34,530 nt of DNA from Candidatus Brocadia sp. GTDB lineage: Bacteria > Planctomycetota > Brocadiia > Brocadiales > Brocadiaceae. Numbering within the stretch: position 1 is the first letter of the stretch; each line of letters begins with the position of its first letter. Shown one piece after another: positions 2,884 to 26,539 of the stretch. A program made the position numbers and the translations under genes. Location of the stretch: assembly GCA_013360945.1 (NCBI GenBank), contig JABWAQ010000031.1, positions 1 through 34,530 on the forward strand. The letters are read 5' to 3'. The notes under the pieces are model-generated. The model did not search any database and was not told where the DNA came from. It saw only the letters and a program-made list of their open reading frames with translations.

Positions 2884-4200
2884 ATGTCGATAATCTTTGA
2901 TGCTGTTTATGCAACGGCGATTACTTTTGGTTCTCCGTATTTTCTTTTGAAATTCATAACCAGTGAACGATACCGTTCCGGTTTAGCGCAGCGTCTGGGC
3001 TGGATTGATATACGTGAAAGAAAAAAACCCTGTCTATGGATTCATTGTGCCTCTGTCGGGGAAATTTTAACGGCAAAAGCATTGGTAAAATCCATCGAAA
3101 AGGAGTTTACTAATGTAGATATTGTCGTCTCTACCAATACCAACACGGGATTATCGGTTGCCAAACGGTGTTTTGACGGCAAGAAGATTTTTTATTTTCC
3201 CCTCGATTTGAGCTGGGTGGTTGATAAAGTATTGAATGCCATACAGCCCAGTTGCGTGGTGTTGGTTGAATTGGAGATATGGCCTAATTTTTTAATAGCA
3301 GTGGCAAAGAGGCGCATCCCGGTCGCCTTGCTGAATGCCAGGATATCAGAAAAATCGCTGAAATGGTACCGTGCGCTCAGCAAGATTTCAAAAGGGTTCT
3401 TTGAAAGTTTAACAAAGAAAGAGAACGTTTTTTGTGCAAGGACCGAAACCGATGCAACACGTCTGATAAGTCTGGGCATACCAGAAGCAAAAATTTTTAT
3501 TACCGGGAATATGAAATTCGATAATATGGTAACTGATGTTCCTGAAGATATGAAAAGACGGTTATTGCGCCTCTTTGAGATTGATGATGCGGATAAGGTG
3601 ATTGTCTGTGGCAGTACCCATGAGGGTGAAGAGGGTGTTATTTTGAATATCTTCAGGCAGATGAGGGCAAGAATTAAAAGGCTAAGGCTGGTTTTGGTAC
3701 CGCGCCATGTCGAAAGGGCAAACGAGGTAATTAAGCTTATTGCGTCTCTGGGGCTCAGGTGTATAAAAAAAACCTCACTCGATAGAGGAGACAAAATAGG
3801 CAATTATAAATATGAAACGGTTATTCTTGTTGATACGGTAGGGGAGTTACTCGCAACTTACAGTATTGCCGACTGCGTGTTCGTGGGTAAAAGCCTTGTG
3901 CCGCACGGTGGTCAAAATATGATGGAACCTGCCGGGTTGGCTAAACCAATTCTTGTAGGGCCGCATACGTTTAATTTTCATGAGGAGGTTCAGTTATTAA
4001 GAGAAGCCAATGCCATAAAAATTGTTCAGAATGAGTCAGCGCTGCTGAATGAAATGATGTATGTATTGGAGCATCCGGATGAGGCCAGGGAAATGGGCAG
4101 GAGGGCGCAATCGGTTGTAATGGGGCAAAGGGGCGCTACCGGTCGTAATGTAACGGTATTAAGGAACATTTTATTGAAGGAGAGGACAGTATCAGTATGA
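2884..4200 (+). CDS. waaA: 3-deoxy-D-manno-octulosonic acid (Kdo) transferase
   Basis: WaaA/KdtA is a GT30 glycosyltransferase that moves Kdo from CMP-Kdo onto lipid A precursors at the inner membrane, an essential step of LPS core synthesis. The 438-residue protein begins with a hydrophobic stretch (about residues 5-24) that may anchor it to the membrane. It carries the family motif CASVGE with the presumed catalytic Glu60. The C-terminal half has the donor-site signature [10 protein letters not shown] followed by KPILVGPH. The stop codon overlaps the metK start as ATGA at 4197-4200, so the two are probably translationally coupled. The gene implies a Gram-negative, LPS-bearing outer membrane. 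No Shine-Dalgarno is visible before the ATG. Confidence 0.93.
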
Positions 4201-5366
4201 AGAAAGGAAGGCATTTATTTACCTCTGAATCGGTGTCTATGGGGCATCCGGATAAGGTTGCTGACCAGATATCTGATGCCGTGCTGGATGCAATGCTTGA
4301 GCAAGACCCGATGAGTCGTGTAGCTTGTGAAACATTGGTGACGACAGGCGTTGCCTTTGTAGCGGGAGAATTTACCACAAAGGCGAATGTGAATATTCCC
4401 GATGTCGTGCGAAACACCATAAAAGAAATTGGCTATGGTGATGCATCGATAGGATTCGATTATAACACGTGTGCGGTCATTACCAGCATTGGCAAGCAAT
4501 CGCCCGATATTTCACAAGGCGTGACTGAAGGCGAAGGGCTCTTTAAGGAACACGGCGCCGGTGATCAGGGAATGATGTTTGGCTATGCCTGCAACGATAC
4601 CCCGGAATTGATGCCGCTCCCTATTATGCTGGCACACAGAATTATCATAAAACATGCAGAATTAAGGCAAAAAGGGGTATTGAAATATTTACGTCCGGAT
4701 GCAAAATCTCAGGTCACGGTAGAATATCAGGACCATACACCGGTAAGAATACATACTGTAGTTATCTCTACCCAGCATGCGCCAGACGTGAAATACGAGA
4801 CCATCAAGCAGGATATGATTGAAAAAGTCGCAAAGCAGGTGATTCCGGCAAACCTATTGGATAGTAAAACAATTTACCATATAAACCCAACGGGACGTTT
4901 TGTGATCGGCGGACCTCAAGGGGACTGTGGTCTGACAGGGCGAAAGATTATTGTGGATACGTATGGTGGCTGGGGGCGCCATGGAGGCGGTGCTTTTTCA
5001 GGCAAAGACCCAACGAAGGTCGATCGAAGCGCTTGTTATGCTGCCCGACATATCGCGAAGAATGTAGTGGCTTCCGGCCTTGCAGATCGGTGCGAAGCGC
5101 AGGTAGCCTATGCCATTGGCGTGGCGAAACCCCTTGCCATCCACATTGCTACGGAAGGCACCGGTAAGATTCCTGATGAAAAGCTCACTCAAATTTGCGA
5201 AAAAGTTTTCGATATGACGCCGAAGGGTATTATTGATCGGTTGAAACTGAGAAGACCGATTTACAAGGTCACGGCCCGACACGGTCATTTTGGTCGCCCG
5301 GAAGACACCTTTACGTGGGAAAAGACAGACATGGCGGATGCCTTGCGCAAGGAAGCGGGTGTTTGA
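4197..5366 (+). CDS. metK: S-adenosylmethionine synthetase
   Basis: MetK joins methionine and ATP to give S-adenosylmethionine, releasing phosphate and pyrophosphate. The 389-residue protein has the family length and all signature segments: [16 protein letters not shown] near the N-terminus, the ATP-binding hexapeptide GAGDQG followed by MMFGY, and the P-loop-like [16 protein letters not shown] near residues 261-276. It starts inside the end of waaA (ATGA overlap). ahcY follows after 141 bp, placing synthesis of SAM and recycling of its product SAH together. I saw no riboswitch before metK or ahcY. The SAM-sensing element in this region lies further downstream, at 8359. Confidence 0.97.
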
Positions 5367-5465: not shown

Positions 5466-6767
<1,302 letters not shown>

Positions 6768-6826
6768 AGCTGTCTTCCTTCGCCTTATATCATTCCGAGG
6801 CAAAGCCGAAGGGTCTCTTAATTTTA

Positions 6827-6865
6827 GATTTACGATTTTAGATTTGAGATTTAAAATCGTAAATC
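6827..6865. repeat. AT-rich perfect inverted repeat before the DUF1015 gene
   Basis: Arms of 14 bp (6827-6840 and 6852-6865) are perfectly complementary around an 11-nt loop. They sit inside a stretch (about 6821-6885) of degenerate repeats of the type ATTTACGATTTT and ATCGTAAATCG. The stretch ends only a few bases before the ATG at 6891, where a ribosome site would be expected. It resembles dispersed intergenic repeats and has no U-tract that would make it a typical terminator. Confidence 0.7.
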
Positions 6866-6890
6866 GTAAATCGAAAATCGCAAATTTACC

Positions 6891-8207
6891 ATGGCTATCA
6901 TAAAACCGTTCCGGGGGTTGCGGTACAATCAGGGTATTATTAAGGACATTTCTGCCGTTGTGACACCGCCCTATGATGTAATCGCACCTCTGGAGCAAGA
7001 GCGATATTACCAGATTCATCCGAATAATATCATTCGTCTGGATTTGGGAAAAGACTTTCCCAGCGATACGGAAGATGCCAATAAATATACCCGCGCTGCT
7101 GAATTTCTCAAGAGTTGGAGGGAAAGTGGCATCCTGAAACAAGAAGATGCCCCGGCGATTTATATTTACGATCAGGAATTTTTGTCTGGCAACAGATGGC
7201 TGGTGCGGAGAGGCTTTATTGCATTGGTGAAACTGGAGCCCTTTGACAAAGGGTCCATCTATCCCCATGAGCAGACACTTCCCGGCCCAAAGGCAGATCG
7301 TTTAAAACTCACCCAATCGTGCAGGGCCAACCTTAGTTCCATATTTGCCCTTTTCCCGGACGAGAATAACGTGATCGATACTTTTTTGTCTACGATTGCA
7401 GTCACAAAACCTGATATGGATTTTTCAGACGATACAGGGGTGAAGAATAAACTTTGGGCAAGCAAGGAAAGGCAGATTATCGATAAATTGATTTCCCTCA
7501 TGAAGGAGAAACCCCTTTTCATTGCAGATGGACACCATCGGTATGAAACTGCATTGGTTTATAAAGAACAAATGCACATGAAACATGGGATAGCGGGAGA
7601 TGATTTGCCTTCGGATTATGTGATGATGGTGTGCGTTTCGATGAATAATAACGGGTTGAAGATACTGCCGGCCCATCGGCTCGTACGGAATATAAAGGAT
7701 TATCGCCCTGACCGTATTTTACAAGCGTTACAACAATCATTTAAGGTCGAACTGTTAGGCAAGGGGTGTAAGACAGAGGAGTTTATGTCAAGCCTCAACA
7801 ATGAGGCCAAGAGACATGCCTTTGTAATGTATATTGGTCAGGATGATACGTATTATAAATTGCGACTGAGTAATGAAGAACTGCTTGATGCGGTATTCGC
7901 CAAAGACCATCCTGAATGGCGGCATCTGGATGCGGGTATCCTTCATGGCGTGATTATCGGCAAAATACTGGGCATAAATTCCACCGATGTGACCGTGAAA
8001 GATTACGTGAAATATGTGAAGGATGAGGCGGAGGCCGTATCACTCGTGAGGTCTGGCCAATATCAATTGGCATTCTTTCTCAACCCTACGCGTATAGAAC
8101 AGGTCAGAGAAATTGCCATGGCACGCAAGGTTATGCCTCCCAAATCGACGTATTTTTATCCGAAGTTAATCACGGGCATTGTCATAAACAGCCTGAATTC
8201 TATCTAA
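6891..8207 (+). CDS. DUF1015 family protein
   Basis: This 438-residue protein belongs to the DUF1015 family, which is widespread in bacteria and archaea but has no established biochemical role that I know. Visible hallmarks are the N-terminal IIKPFRGLRYN segment, VVTPPYDVI near residue 25, and the signature ADGHHRYETAL near residue 208. It is soluble, with no signal peptide or membrane segment. The start ATG at 6891 has no clear Shine-Dalgarno and lies directly after an AT-rich inverted repeat. Its position between ahcY and a SAM-riboswitch-controlled module might hint at amino-acid or one-carbon metabolism, but that is only context. Confidence 0.9.
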   Translation: MAIIKPFRGLRYNQGIIKDISAVVTPPYDVIAPLEQERYYQIHPNNIIRLDLGKDFPSDTEDANKYTRAAEFLKSWRESGILKQEDAPAIYIYDQEFLSGNRWLVRRGFIALVKLEPFDKGSIYPHEQTLPGPKADRLKLTQSCRANLSSIFALFPDENNVIDTFLSTIAVTKPDMDFSDDTGVKNKLWASKERQIIDKLISLMKEKPLFIADGHHRYETALVYKEQMHMKHGIAGDDLPSDYVMMVCVSMNNNGLKILPAHRLVRNIKDYRPDRILQALQQSFKVELLGKGCKTEEFMSSLNNEAKRHAFVMYIGQDDTYYKLRLSNEELLDAVFAKDHPEWRHLDAGILHGVIIGKILGINSTDVTVKDYVKYVKDEAEAVSLVRSGQYQLAFFLNPTRIEQVREIAMARKVMPPKSTYFYPKLITGIVINSLNSI

Positions 8208-8312: not shown

Positions 8313-8341
8313 TTGACAGAGGGTGTTTTTTTCGTTACAAT
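8313..8341 (+). promoter_or_regulatory. Predicted sigma70-type promoter for the SAM riboswitch transcript
   Basis: TTGACA (8313-8318) and TACAAT (8336-8341) are separated by the optimal 17 bp. The predicted start near 8348 lies about 11 nt upstream of the first helix of the riboswitch, so the whole leader would be transcribed. This makes the thrC-like/cysO-like pair a separate transcription unit from the DUF1015 gene. Confidence 0.75.
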
Positions 8342-8358
8342 TTGTGAAATTTCATTCG

Positions 8359-8479
8359 TCTTATCGAGAGTGGCAGAGGGACTGGCCCTGTGAAGCCACA
8401 GCAACCGGTCTTGCCCAGCGAATTGCGCGGGCGGGATGCTGGTGCTAATTCCTGTCTCGTGTTTTGGGAAAAGATAAGA
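8359..8479 (+). promoter_or_regulatory. SAM-I (S-box) riboswitch aptamer
   Basis: The leader carries the classic S-box core in order: CTTATCGAGAG, then GGCAGAGGGACTGGCCC, then GAAGCCACAGCAACC, then GGTGCTAATTCC. The basal helix P1 is formed by TCTTATC (8359-8365) and GATAAGA (8473-8479), a perfect 7-bp pairing. S-box RNAs bind SAM and usually repress methionine synthesis and transport genes when SAM is plentiful. The expression platform follows directly: a terminator at 8491-8533, and an alternative helix between ATAAGATAGG (8474-8483) and CCTATCTTAT (8502-8511). That helix uses the 3' strand of P1 and is topologically incompatible with the terminator. The regulated genes are the threonine-synthase paralogue and the CysO-like protein. 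Confidence 0.95.
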
Positions 8480-8490
8480 TAGGTACATAG

Positions 8491-8533
8491 AAAAGCCTCT
8501 TCCTATCTTATTTGTATAGAAAGAGGCTTTTTT
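8491..8533 (+). terminator. Riboswitch-controlled intrinsic terminator
   Basis: The 11-bp stem AAAAGCCTCTT (8491-8501) and AAGAGGCTTTT (8521-8531) is followed by a T run to 8533. The loop contains CCTATCTTAT (8502-8511), which can instead pair with 8474-8483 to make an antiterminator. SAM binding should stabilise P1, free this stem and stop transcription before the gene at 8675. Confidence 0.9.
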
Positions 8534-8674
8534 ATTTGCTTGAGAGTTTGGACACAGATCACCACAGACTTCGCCGGGAACTTAGTCGAACAATTATCAG
8601 AATTTTAAAAGGTAAACCTTATTATCTGCATCTGCGGAAATCTGCGTCCTGATCAAATGAACGGAGGGCAATAG

Positions 8675-9919
8675 ATGGGATTTGTAAAAGGTCTGAAATG
8701 CCGGGAGTGTGGAAAACCATACCCAAAGGAGCCATTGCACGTCTGCAGCTTTTGTTTTGGTCCACTGGAAGTCGATTATGATTATGATGGGATTAAGAAG
8801 GTTTTGACCAGAAAGCTGATTGAATCCCGTGGCAAGACGATGTGGCGTTACCAGGAACTGCTTCCGGTTGATGGTGAACCAACGGTGGGCGCGCAGGTCG
8901 GTTTCACGCCCCTCGTCAAGGCAAATAACCTCGCCAAAGTCCTTGGGGTGAAAGAACTGTATGTGAAGAACGATTCCGTGAATTATCCCACGTTCTCCTT
9001 TAAAGACCGGGTCGTTTCCACGGCGCTGACAAAGGCAAAGGAATTTGGGTATAAAACGGTCGGATGCGCCACCACAGGAAATCTGGGGAACGCCGTAGCC
9101 GCCCAGGCCGTGCAGGCAGGGCTGGAAAGTTATATCATTATGCCTGCCGATCTGGAACAGGGCAAGATTATTGGCACGTTAATTTACGGTACGAATGTAA
9201 TAAAAGTCCGGGGAAATTATGACAATGTAAACAAGCTCTGTTCTGAGATAGCAGATAAATATGGCTGGGCGATTGTGAATGTGAATCTGAGACCTTACTA
9301 CGGAGAAGGTTCAAAGACCTATGGATACGAGATCGTTGAACAACTTGGATGGAAAGCGCCGCAACATATTATAGTTCCCATGGCAGGCGGGTCTTTGATT
9401 ACTAAGATAGAAAAGGCTATTAAAGAATTTGTAAAACTGGGTCTCATTGATAAGGCGGATACTAAACTTCACGGCGCTCAGGCAAGTGGCAGCTCGCCGA
9501 TAACTACAGCCGTTAAGCAGGAAACTGACGTGATAAAACCCGTAAAGCCCAAAACCATTGCGCAGTCGATAGCAATCGGTAACCCGGCTGACGGCTATTA
9601 CTCTGTGAAGTCCATTAATGTGTCCGGTGGATGGGCAGAGGACGTAACCGACGATGAACTCGTGGAAGGTATTAAATTGCTTGCCAGAACGGAGGGCATC
9701 TTTACGGAGACAGCGGGCGGTGTGACTGTGGCGGTTACTAAAAAACTTGTTGAACAGGGCAAAATCCCGCGGGACGAGTCCATCGTCATCAGTGTGACGG
9801 GAAACGGGTTAAAGACCCAGGAAGCGGTGCTGGATAAATTAGAAACCCCGAAAATTATCAACCCATCCCTCTCTGAATTTGATGCCATTATGGAAGAAAA
9901 GATGGCTGCAGTACATTAA
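8675..9919 (+). CDS. Threonine-synthase-like PLP enzyme under SAM riboswitch control
   Basis: A 414-residue fold-type II PLP enzyme of the threonine synthase family. It begins with a zinc-ribbon (Cys9, Cys12, Cys24, Cys27), and the PLP lysine is Lys110 in SFKDR. A strong GGAGG precedes the ATG. Canonical ThrC turns O-phosphohomoserine into threonine, but several active-site loops differ here from the second copy at 25202. The phosphate-loop motif is TTGNLGNAVAAQ instead of [20 protein letters not shown] replaces SLRIEGQKT, and VPMAGGSL replaces VPGGNLGN. With a SAM-I riboswitch upstream and a CysO-like sulfur carrier 66 bp downstream, I infer a role in sulfur transfer onto a homoserine ester (homocysteine synthesis) rather than threonine synthesis. 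Ordinary threonine synthase remains possible. Confidence 0.85.
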   Translation: MGFVKGLKCRECGKPYPKEPLHVCSFCFGPLEVDYDYDGIKKVLTRKLIESRGKTMWRYQELLPVDGEPTVGAQVGFTPLVKANNLAKVLGVKELYVKNDSVNYPTFSFKDRVVSTALTKAKEFGYKTVGCATTGNLGNAVAAQAVQAGLESYIIMPADLEQGKIIGTLIYGTNVIKVRGNYDNVNKLCSEIADKYGWAIVNVNLRPYYGEGSKTYGYEIVEQLGWKAPQHIIVPMAGGSLITKIEKAIKEFVKLGLIDKADTKLHGAQASGSSPITTAVKQETDVIKPVKPKTIAQSIAIGNPADGYYSVKSINVSGGWAEDVTDDELVEGIKLLARTEGIFTETAGGVTVAVTKKLVEQGKIPRDESIVISVTGNGLKTQEAVLDKLETPKIINPSLSEFDAIMEEKMAAVH

Positions 9920-9985
9920 ACGTATACGCAGAGGATTTCATATTTTCTGTTTTTCTTATATTTACTACTTGAAAGGGGTATAAAT

Positions 9986-10267
9986 ATGTCAGTAACGGTA
10001 CGCATTCCAACGCCACTAAGAACCCTTACCAAGGGCGCTGACGAGGTTAAAGTGGAAGGAAAGAATATTAAGGATATTGTCGAGAATCTTGAAGTGAATT
10101 ATACGGGGATCAAAGAAAGGATTTGCGACAATGACGGGCAAATCAGACGGTTTATCAATTTTTACCTTAACGATGAGGATATCCGGTTTATGAGTAACTT
10201 GAATACACCCGTAAAAGATGGCGACTATATCTCTATCGTACCTGCAATTGCTGGTGGTAATTCGTAA
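9986..10267 (+). CDS. CysO-like MoaD/ThiS-family sulfur-carrier protein
   Basis: A 93-residue ubiquitin-fold protein. From memory it resembles mycobacterial CysO along its length: VTVRIPTPLR at the start, NYTGIKERI in the middle, INFYLNDEDIRF, then VPAIAGG at the end. Such carriers are activated at the terminal glycine as a thiocarboxylate and donate sulfur to a PLP enzyme (CysO with CysM, HcyS with MetY). The di-glycine here is followed by two extra residues, Asn-Ser, before the stop, so a protease would have to expose it before activation. AGGGG lies 8 nt before the ATG. It is the last gene of the riboswitch unit. No moaE, thiF/moeB or JAMM protease gene is in the window. A molybdopterin role is possible but less consistent with the context. 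Confidence 0.85.
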   Translation: MSVTVRIPTPLRTLTKGADEVKVEGKNIKDIVENLEVNYTGIKERICDNDGQIRRFINFYLNDEDIRFMSNLNTPVKDGDYISIVPAIAGGNS

Positions 10268-25201: not shown

Positions 25202-26539
25202 TTATAGCGATATCTTTTCAAGTTTCCCGGCGATAGCGGTCATTACTGCATCATACTGAGGTGGGACTTCTACGGGAAGATTAGCAAAGCGTGGGGTTAC
25301 TTCCTCCAAGGTATTTTCGTGATAATTTATTTTGAATTCAGGAAATTTTAAACCGTGGGCAGTGGAGATGACAACGACCTTTTCATCGGGTCTTATGAGT
25401 TTTTTCTTCAATAACTTTATTAATGCCGCCAGCGCTACCCCTGTGTGCGGGCAACTAAATAGCCCGGTTCTATCCGCCTGTGCAGAGGCGTTTGCCAGTT
25501 CATCTTCAGTTGCCTGCTCTACAATACCGTGGAAGTTTTTTAAAACGTTGATAGCCTTTTTATAACTTACCGGATCGCCTATCTGGATGGCGTTCGCAAG
25601 GGTTTTTTGCGCCTTTACCGGTTTAAATTCTTTGAATCCGCTCAAATAACTGAGATACAGAGGATTGGCCTTGGCTGCTTGTGCACACACAATGCGCGGC
25701 TGCTTATCTATCAGTCCTAATTCCTTCATCATGAGAAAGCCTTTTCCCAGTGCAGCGGTATTGCCCAAATTTCCCCCTGGCACTACCACGACATCGGGCA
25801 CCTCCCACTCAAACTGCTGAACTATTTCAATGCTTACCGTTTTTTGTCCCTCGATGCGGAGGGAGTTCATGGAGTTGGCTAAGTAGATATTATTTTTACT
25901 GCATATCTCCTTCACCAGTTTCATGCATCCGTCAAAATCTGTATCAACCGATAGCGTAAGCGCCCCGTTGGCGATTGGCTGGATGAGTTGAGCGTGAGAT
26001 ACCTTATTTTTGGGGAGAAATACAATGGCAAGAATCCCTGCGGCGGCACAATAGGACGCTAAAGCAGCGGACGTATCACCCGTGGAAGCACAAGCAACAG
26101 CCGGGATTTTTTTCCCTTCGGCGATCATTTGCTTGACCATTGAAACAAGCACGGTCATCCCCAGATCTTTAAATGATCCCGTGTGGGCATTTCCACACTG
26201 TTTGATCCATAAGTCTTCGACGCCGATTTCTTTTCCCAGTCGTTCGGCCCAAAAGAGGTTGCTTCCCCCCTCGTACAAGGAAACGACATTGTCATTATCG
26301 ACCGTTGGACAAACCCATTCCTTCTTTCCCCAAACGGAACTCCCATAAGGCCATTTGGTACGTCGGTAGCGCTCGTCGAACAATCTCTTCCAGTGTTCCG
26401 GTGAGTGCCTTCGGAGTCTGTCTAAATCATGTTTGACCTCCAGCAAATCGCCACACTTCTTACACTGATAAACGACTTCGTTCAGTTCGTACCTTTCATC
26501 ACAACCCGATATACACTGAAACCATGCCCGATATGGCAT
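25202..26539 (-). CDS. thrC: Threonine synthase (canonical copy)
   Basis: Threonine synthase makes threonine from O-phosphohomoserine with PLP. The 445-residue protein carries an N-terminal zinc-ribbon (Cys9, Cys13, Cys26, Cys29) and the PLP lysine Lys124 in TGSFKDLG. Unlike the copy at 8675, it keeps the usual ThrC active-site loops: [12 protein letters not shown] for PLP phosphate, [13 protein letters not shown], and [16 protein letters not shown] lies 9 nt before the ATG. This is therefore the better candidate for the true threonine-making enzyme, leaving the riboswitch-controlled paralogue free for another role. No hom or thrB gene is nearby. Confidence 0.93.

Follow-up and report, generated by a model that had tools for sequence, protein, structure and literature searches.

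In Wolinella, homocysteine is made by a protein-thiocarboxylate system, HcyS/HcyD/MetY, in which a JAMM protease removes an extra C-terminal residue from the sulfur carrier. The CysO/CysM/Mec system of Mycobacterium is built from the carrier CysO, a fold-type II enzyme dependent on pyridoxal phosphate (PLP) and a JAMM protease, and its product is cysteine. In the work of Hasebe et al. 2024 (Appl Environ Microbiol 90:e01247-24), the carrier MetO reportedly hands its thiocarboxylate sulfur to the enzyme MetM. A later paper that cites this work (PMC12172450) describes MetM as a new Streptomyces homocysteine synthase that converts O-phosphohomoserine to homocysteine, and in S. albulus it places a S-adenosylmethionine (SAM) riboswitch upstream of metM and includes metO. 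Here we analyze a 34,530-nucleotide stretch of Candidatus Brocadia sp. DNA (contig JABWAQ010000031.1, positions 1 to 34,530 of the forward strand), which as a whole we call the window. At 8313-10267 it holds a riboswitch, a gene of the threonine synthase (ThrC) family and a sulfur-carrier gene as one unit. We consider it highly likely, judging from sequence, that this unit forms a metM-metO operon controlled by a SAM-I riboswitch that acts through transcription termination, and that it makes homocysteine from O-phosphohomoserine and carrier-borne sulfur.

Compared with the Streptomyces system as PMC12172450 describes it, the two loci are alike in having a ThrC-like enzyme, an adjacent sulfur-carrier gene and an upstream SAM riboswitch. 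They differ in the host, here a planctomycete that performs anaerobic ammonium oxidation (anammox), and in the carrier, which in the window has residues past Gly-Gly whereas that of Nonomuraea ends in GG. With the Wolinella system the window would share the thiocarboxylate route and a carrier with one or more extra C-terminal residues, both as predicted on the window side; the final enzyme is fold-type I MetY there and fold-type II and ThrC-like here. With the Mycobacterium system it shares a CysO-like carrier, a fold-type II PLP enzyme and a JAMM protease, but cysteine is made by CysM and the window's genome carries a CysM-like gene separately. Threonine synthases (plant type, 1e5x; Bacillus subtilis-like, 6cgq) are of the same family and probably have the same substrate, O-phosphohomoserine; the MetM sequences form a clade apart from them, with conserved residues of its own. 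The earlier note on this DNA proposed this chemistry, which fits the genomic evidence, and added that no pathway with a ThrC-fold enzyme in this role had been described. The latter statement is wrong, since MetM and metO were published in 2024 (as cited in PMC12172450). The proposed function is probably right and the pathway is not new. The findings of use lie in assigning the pathway to anammox bacteria, and in the putatively masked carriers and the carrier-NIL fusions.

Enzyme, carrier and leader of the candidate operon

The metM-like gene (8675-9919, forward strand) encodes a 414-residue fold-type II PLP enzyme of the ThrC family, which we predict to be an O-phosphohomoserine-dependent homocysteine synthase. 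Family models name it threonine synthase: PALP matches at E 6.3e-71, and TIGR00260, the NCBIfam thrC model, scores 292 bits over a cut-off of 167 and does not separate MetM from ThrC. Identity to the MetM of Nonomuraea (locus L160) is 52%. The order at that locus is riboswitch, MetM and a carrier ending in GG, followed by cold-shock-like and GroEL-like genes named by eye. We placed the enzyme in a tree of 39 hand-picked and related sequences. Four of its branches were flagged as long (Nonomuraea, Priestia, Azospirillum, Chlorohelix), and so were long-branch joins. In this tree, 29 MetM sequences including Nonomuraea lie on one side of a branch (100/99) and ten threonine-synthase-like sequences lie on the other. 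The window enzyme groups with the former and not with the threonine synthases, and shares a clade with actinobacterial MetM, Nonomuraea standing in for S. albulus. Thirty-three alignment columns are kept in at least 27 of the 29 MetM sequences with a residue that is found in 0 of the ten ThrC sequences. These include columns 204, 206, 209 and 237, 240, 241, and the stretches that hold them are ones that we take, from threonine synthase structures, to touch substrate and cofactor.

The carrier gene (metO/cysO-like, 9986-10267, forward strand) encodes a 93-residue protein of the ThiS fold (ThiS, E 1.9e-14). Its best solved relative is M. tuberculosis CysO (3dwg, E 2e-23). The C-terminal Gly-Gly is present in the motif PAIAGG, and two residues, Asn-Ser, follow it. 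This ending in GG-Asn-Ser instead of GG is one of two details that go beyond the earlier note; the other is a second ThrC-like gene at 25202-26539.

The leader lies on the same strand. It begins with a sigma-70-type promoter (TTGACA-17-TACAAT, 8313-8341) with 11 of 12 consensus matches, and because the 481-base stretch holds two promoter-like sites against a shuffle mean of 0.7, position counts for as much as score in this call. The SAM-I (S-box) aptamer (8358-8480) is matched by the covariance model RF00162 at 83.1 bits (E 2.1e-18), above the gathering score of 44.4 bits. An antiterminator (8474-8511), in which 8474-8483 pairs perfectly with 8502-8511 over 10 base pairs, competes with aptamer stem P1. 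The intrinsic terminator (8487-8535) is a hairpin with a U run whose arms, 8487-8506 and 8516-8535, are 90% complementary with 9 nucleotides between them. It is absent from the list of the consensus scan, probably because that scan allows loops of 3-8 only. The 84-nucleotide stretch 8462-8545 has a folding energy of -27 kcal/mol (z -4.2). A hairpin ahead of a T run together with an antiterminator match of 7-12 base pairs is found at 20 of 20 loci (L001-L020, L001 being the window). We predict that this SAM-I element is a transcription-terminating riboswitch that controls metM-metO. The scans and models thus bear out the promoter, S-box aptamer, terminator/antiterminator, ThrC-like gene and CysO-like gene where the earlier note had placed them.

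Conservation in Brocadiales and beyond

Our set consists of 39 Brocadiales genomes, namely the window's own (99% complete, 5% contaminated) and 38 relatives, with 24 from the window's family and 15 others. An enzyme match at E 0.001 or better is present in 38 of the 39, a tally that includes plant-type ThrC; by identity (72% or more), the MetM-like gene itself is present in 36. The gene is in two pieces in G024 and is represented by its 3' part only in G016. It was not found in the search of three genomes, G014, G019 and G035. The completeness of G019 is 86% and that of G035 is 88%, and an assembly break is likely in G014 because a 3937-base contig ends there within the carrier match. A near-full-length carrier occurs in 35 of the 39 genomes and lies about 0.5 kb or less from MetM in 34 of these 35. 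In the single-contig genome G020 the enzyme (C1 3413274-3414512) and the carrier (3432703-3432975) are 18 kb apart, and both are retained.

The SAM-I riboswitch was detected in 33 of the 39 genomes; among the 73 candidates scored per genome, each of the 33 had one. All 33 are directly upstream of the MetM-like gene on the same strand, as judged by comparing coordinates by eye. The six genomes without a riboswitch match are the three in which no gene was found, G016, whose gene is truncated by the start of its contig, and the pair G027 and G030, in which enzyme and carrier genes are both present. A chance riboswitch is ruled out by the score of 83 bits and by the 33 of 33 matches that lie upstream of a MetM-like gene.

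A survey of named genomes extends these observations. Among its best 80 loci, which are related and not independent, 53 are from outside Brocadiales. The close relatives that bear names belong to Candidatus Brocadia, Jettenia and Scalindua, all of which are anammox genera, and on this ground we assign the window to an anammox planctomycete. The carrier is downstream of MetM in 76 of the best 80 loci, and in the other four the contig ends within 2-1557 bases. Outside Brocadiales, an upstream SAM-I riboswitch was found at 27 of the 34 loci scanned (34 of the 53 were covered). The neighboring genes vary: L106 has the order riboswitch, PALP (CysM-like by eye), ThiF, MetM, a nitrite/sulfite-reductase family gene, a carrier-NIL fusion and ThiF, and L110 has MetM, a carrier-NIL fusion, two CysM-like genes (by eye) and a JAMM protease. 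The earlier note had allowed that the pair might not be conserved elsewhere; it is conserved well beyond the window's genome.

In the window, metK (4197-5366) and ahcY (5508-6767) lie upstream of the unit on the forward strand, as the earlier note had said. A gene for a DUF1015 protein of unknown function (6891-8207) intervenes between ahcY and the riboswitch, and an A/T-rich inverted repeat (6821-6878) is located between ahcY and the DUF1015 gene.

Carrier tails, sulfur supply and the proposed route

We tallied carrier ends at 84 loci, comprising L001-L020, ten other Brocadiales, 53 non-Brocadiales and Nonomuraea. Three have no carrier in the stretch and one is unclear, which leaves 80 readable carriers. 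Not counted were L074, whose carrier is truncated where the contig ends, L076 (G020), and L080-L105 and L108, which are named Brocadiales, several of them on the same contigs as Brocadiales genomes in the set. A tail follows Gly-Gly in 74 of the 80 carriers; it varies in sequence and in length, from one residue up to a NIL domain. The remaining six end in GG, four among the 30 Brocadiales and two among the 50 others. Five carriers (L106, L107, L109, L110 and L112) have tails of more than 60 residues, and four of these are from Desulfuromonadales or Deltaproteobacteria. The two that were run against Pfam both have a NIL domain after Gly-Gly, L106 (5645-6160) at E 1.2e-13 and L110 (4275-4790) at E 9.1e-14. 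We found no report of MetO-carrier tails after Gly-Gly or of carrier-NIL fusions in the literature searched.

The variable tail after Gly-Gly implies proteolytic activation. Genes that could serve this and the later loading of sulfur are widespread in the 39 genomes: a JAMM protease (Prok-JAB) exceeds the Pfam cut-off in 37 and a ThiF-type E1 is present in 38. In the window's genome, the JAMM gene is on contig C132 (L025 4918-8080) with CysM-like and TusA genes identified by Pfam and sulfite-reductase-like and DsrE-like genes named by eye. Close to an E1 gene lies one that by eye looks rhodanese-like. The CysM-like gene is over the cut-off of the cysKM model, and it matches TIGR01138 at E 5e-114 but under the cut-off. 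The single CysO-like carrier that was found may serve both CysM and MetM.

We propose the following route. When SAM is low, the antiterminator would form and both genes would be transcribed. The JAMM protease would trim the carrier tail to expose Gly-Gly, which the ThiF/MoeB-type E1 would then adenylate, and the carrier would become a thiocarboxylate by taking up sulfide made by a sulfite reductase or sulfur delivered by a sulfurtransferase. MetM would exchange the phosphate of O-phosphohomoserine, which would also be the substrate of a separate plant-type threonine synthase, for the carrier-borne sulfur. Homocysteine would then be set free, a step in which the JAMM protease may act as well. 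The MetM/MetO chemistry in this scheme is carried over from the Streptomyces work of Hasebe et al. 2024, as cited in PMC12172450. We would give an even chance to a further proposal, in which MetO carriers, both in anammox bacteria and in many proteobacterial and related metagenome-assembled genomes, are masked precursors that are cut by a JAMM protease before sulfur loading, with NIL perhaps sensing methionine. This would be a protease-gated variant of MetM/MetO and the only route by which most anammox bacteria make homocysteine.

Other homocysteine routes were sought in the same genomes. The DUF39 (HcyBio) route with a NIL/ferredoxin protein, according to the available part of its description (PMC5764234), also involves a NIL domain, as do the loci here that fuse the carrier to NIL. 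Homoserine is no intermediate there, and DUF39 (PF01837) was found in 0 of the 39 genomes in a search with three positive controls. For PF01053, the MetB/MetC/MetY family, all 39 genomes have raw matches over the Pfam cut-off, but these are convincing in 9 of the 39 among the matches listed: seven are full-length at E 1.1e-159 or lower, that of G006 is partial at 2e-89, and that of G030 is at 1.2e-52. The genes of G018 (L032) and G001 (L028) score 530 and 536 bits with the cystathionine gamma-synthase model, whose cut-off is 513. The G018 copy adjoins a gene whose best model, under its cut-off, is cystathionine beta-synthase, and reverse transsulfuration is therefore possible in that genome. 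The window's genome has no clear PF01053 member among the matches listed, and hence no fold-type I MetY partner. Its one MetX match has 20 bits against a cut-off of 500, a weak test in that 0 of 9 responding controls reached the cut-off. The earlier note had considered that a complete alternative homocysteine route might be encoded; in the window's genome PF01053, DUF39 and MetX were not found, and MetA was not searched.

Threonine, cysteine and the methionine step

Several observations weigh against the assignment of the unit to homocysteine synthesis, and the alternatives are best judged together with them. The unit could instead encode a SAM-regulated enzyme that makes threonine, either as a second genuine threonine synthase or in a bifunctional role as threonine/homocysteine synthase, and the carrier would then serve another pathway. 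The thrC model score of 292 bits against 167 is in keeping with this. So is a Microcystis homologue that is 51.6% identical to S. albulus MetM and stands beside a metO-like gene; according to PMC12172450, it showed threonine synthase activity in vitro, with threonine deaminase activity as well, and in cells its behavior fell short of a full MetM. The window, however, has a plant-type threonine synthase outside the unit (25202-26539, reverse strand; Arabidopsis ThrC 1e5x, E 7e-178, with the tree in agreement), which is likely, by sequence, to be the true ThrC of this genome. It rules out the ThrC-like gene of the unit as the genome's only threonine synthase. A second match of this kind, 27-31% identical to MetM and in some cases partial, is present in 35 of the 39 genomes. 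The plant-type match was not found in G014, G023, G031 and G038, other ThrC types not being searched, and G023, G031 and G038 do hold a MetM-like gene; in these three the gene might make threonine too, unless another ThrC type is present. In 33 of the 39 genomes the one SAM-I riboswitch detected precedes the MetM-like gene, whose clade is separate with its own conserved residues and which is linked to a carrier. We consider this alternative unlikely. Cysteine as the product, made from O-phosphoserine or O-acetylserine and carrier thiocarboxylate by a CysO-dependent synthase, would agree with the carrier being nearest to M. tuberculosis CysO among solved structures and with the JAMM gene beside a CysM-like gene. 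Cysteine, however, is already provided for by that separate CysM-like gene, the enzyme of the unit resembles ThrC and not CysM in sequence, and the control element belongs to a SAM-sensing class. We see hardly any likelihood in it.

The step after homocysteine is less easily accounted for. PF02965, PF02574 and PF01717 (MetH, MetE and core methionine synthase) were not found in the window's genome, and across the 39 genomes they matched in 0, 3 and 6, respectively. The lack of a recognized methionine synthase in the window's genome speaks against our reading, since it leaves the homocysteine without an evident onward step. Also adverse are G027 and G030, which hold enzyme and carrier genes and gave no riboswitch match, and the remaining PF01053 matches (partial, E 1.6e-12 or weaker), which we have taken as other fold-type I enzymes, those of the window's genome among them. 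It could then be supposed that these bacteria take up methionine and do not methylate homocysteine, so that the product of the operon would not be a precursor of methionine. Two papers lean this way: in PMC6714388, cystathionine beta-lyase and gamma-synthase are missing from every anammox metagenome-assembled genome, and PMC9909701 calls the pathway incomplete. PMC5460018 has a methionine synthase present with the other steps not identified, and all three suggest an outside supply of methionine. At least one of the two papers judged by the cystathionine enzymes, which the MetM route does not need. The SAM-I control and the nearby metK and ahcY also oppose this supposition, which we regard as very improbable. 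PF01717 gave no match in the control genome of Methanosarcina acetivorans, despite the core synthase MesC of that organism (PMC7857596, available part), and a divergent core synthase may therefore be hidden. PF01208, which is no proven methionine synthase, matched in 20 of the 39 genomes, of which 19 are among the 24 of the window's family and one, G030, is among the 15 others. Genes of this URO-D family occur as adjacent pairs on contigs C15 and C20 of the window's genome, and in relatives. While the last step is not found, methionine synthesis from MetM homocysteine in the window's genome is something that we infer.

We favor the metM-metO operon as the explanation of this unit. Our literature search, which left most subscription papers outside, found no paper that assigns MetM to anammox bacteria. 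If the pair is MetM/MetO, the homocysteine step would be present in anammox bacteria and hidden under the label of threonine synthase. The dependency inferred at that step would therefore be an annotation gap, and the missing methionine synthase becomes a sharper question. Masking of the carrier and its fusion to NIL would, in addition, bring a point of control that is not seen in the Nonomuraea carrier.

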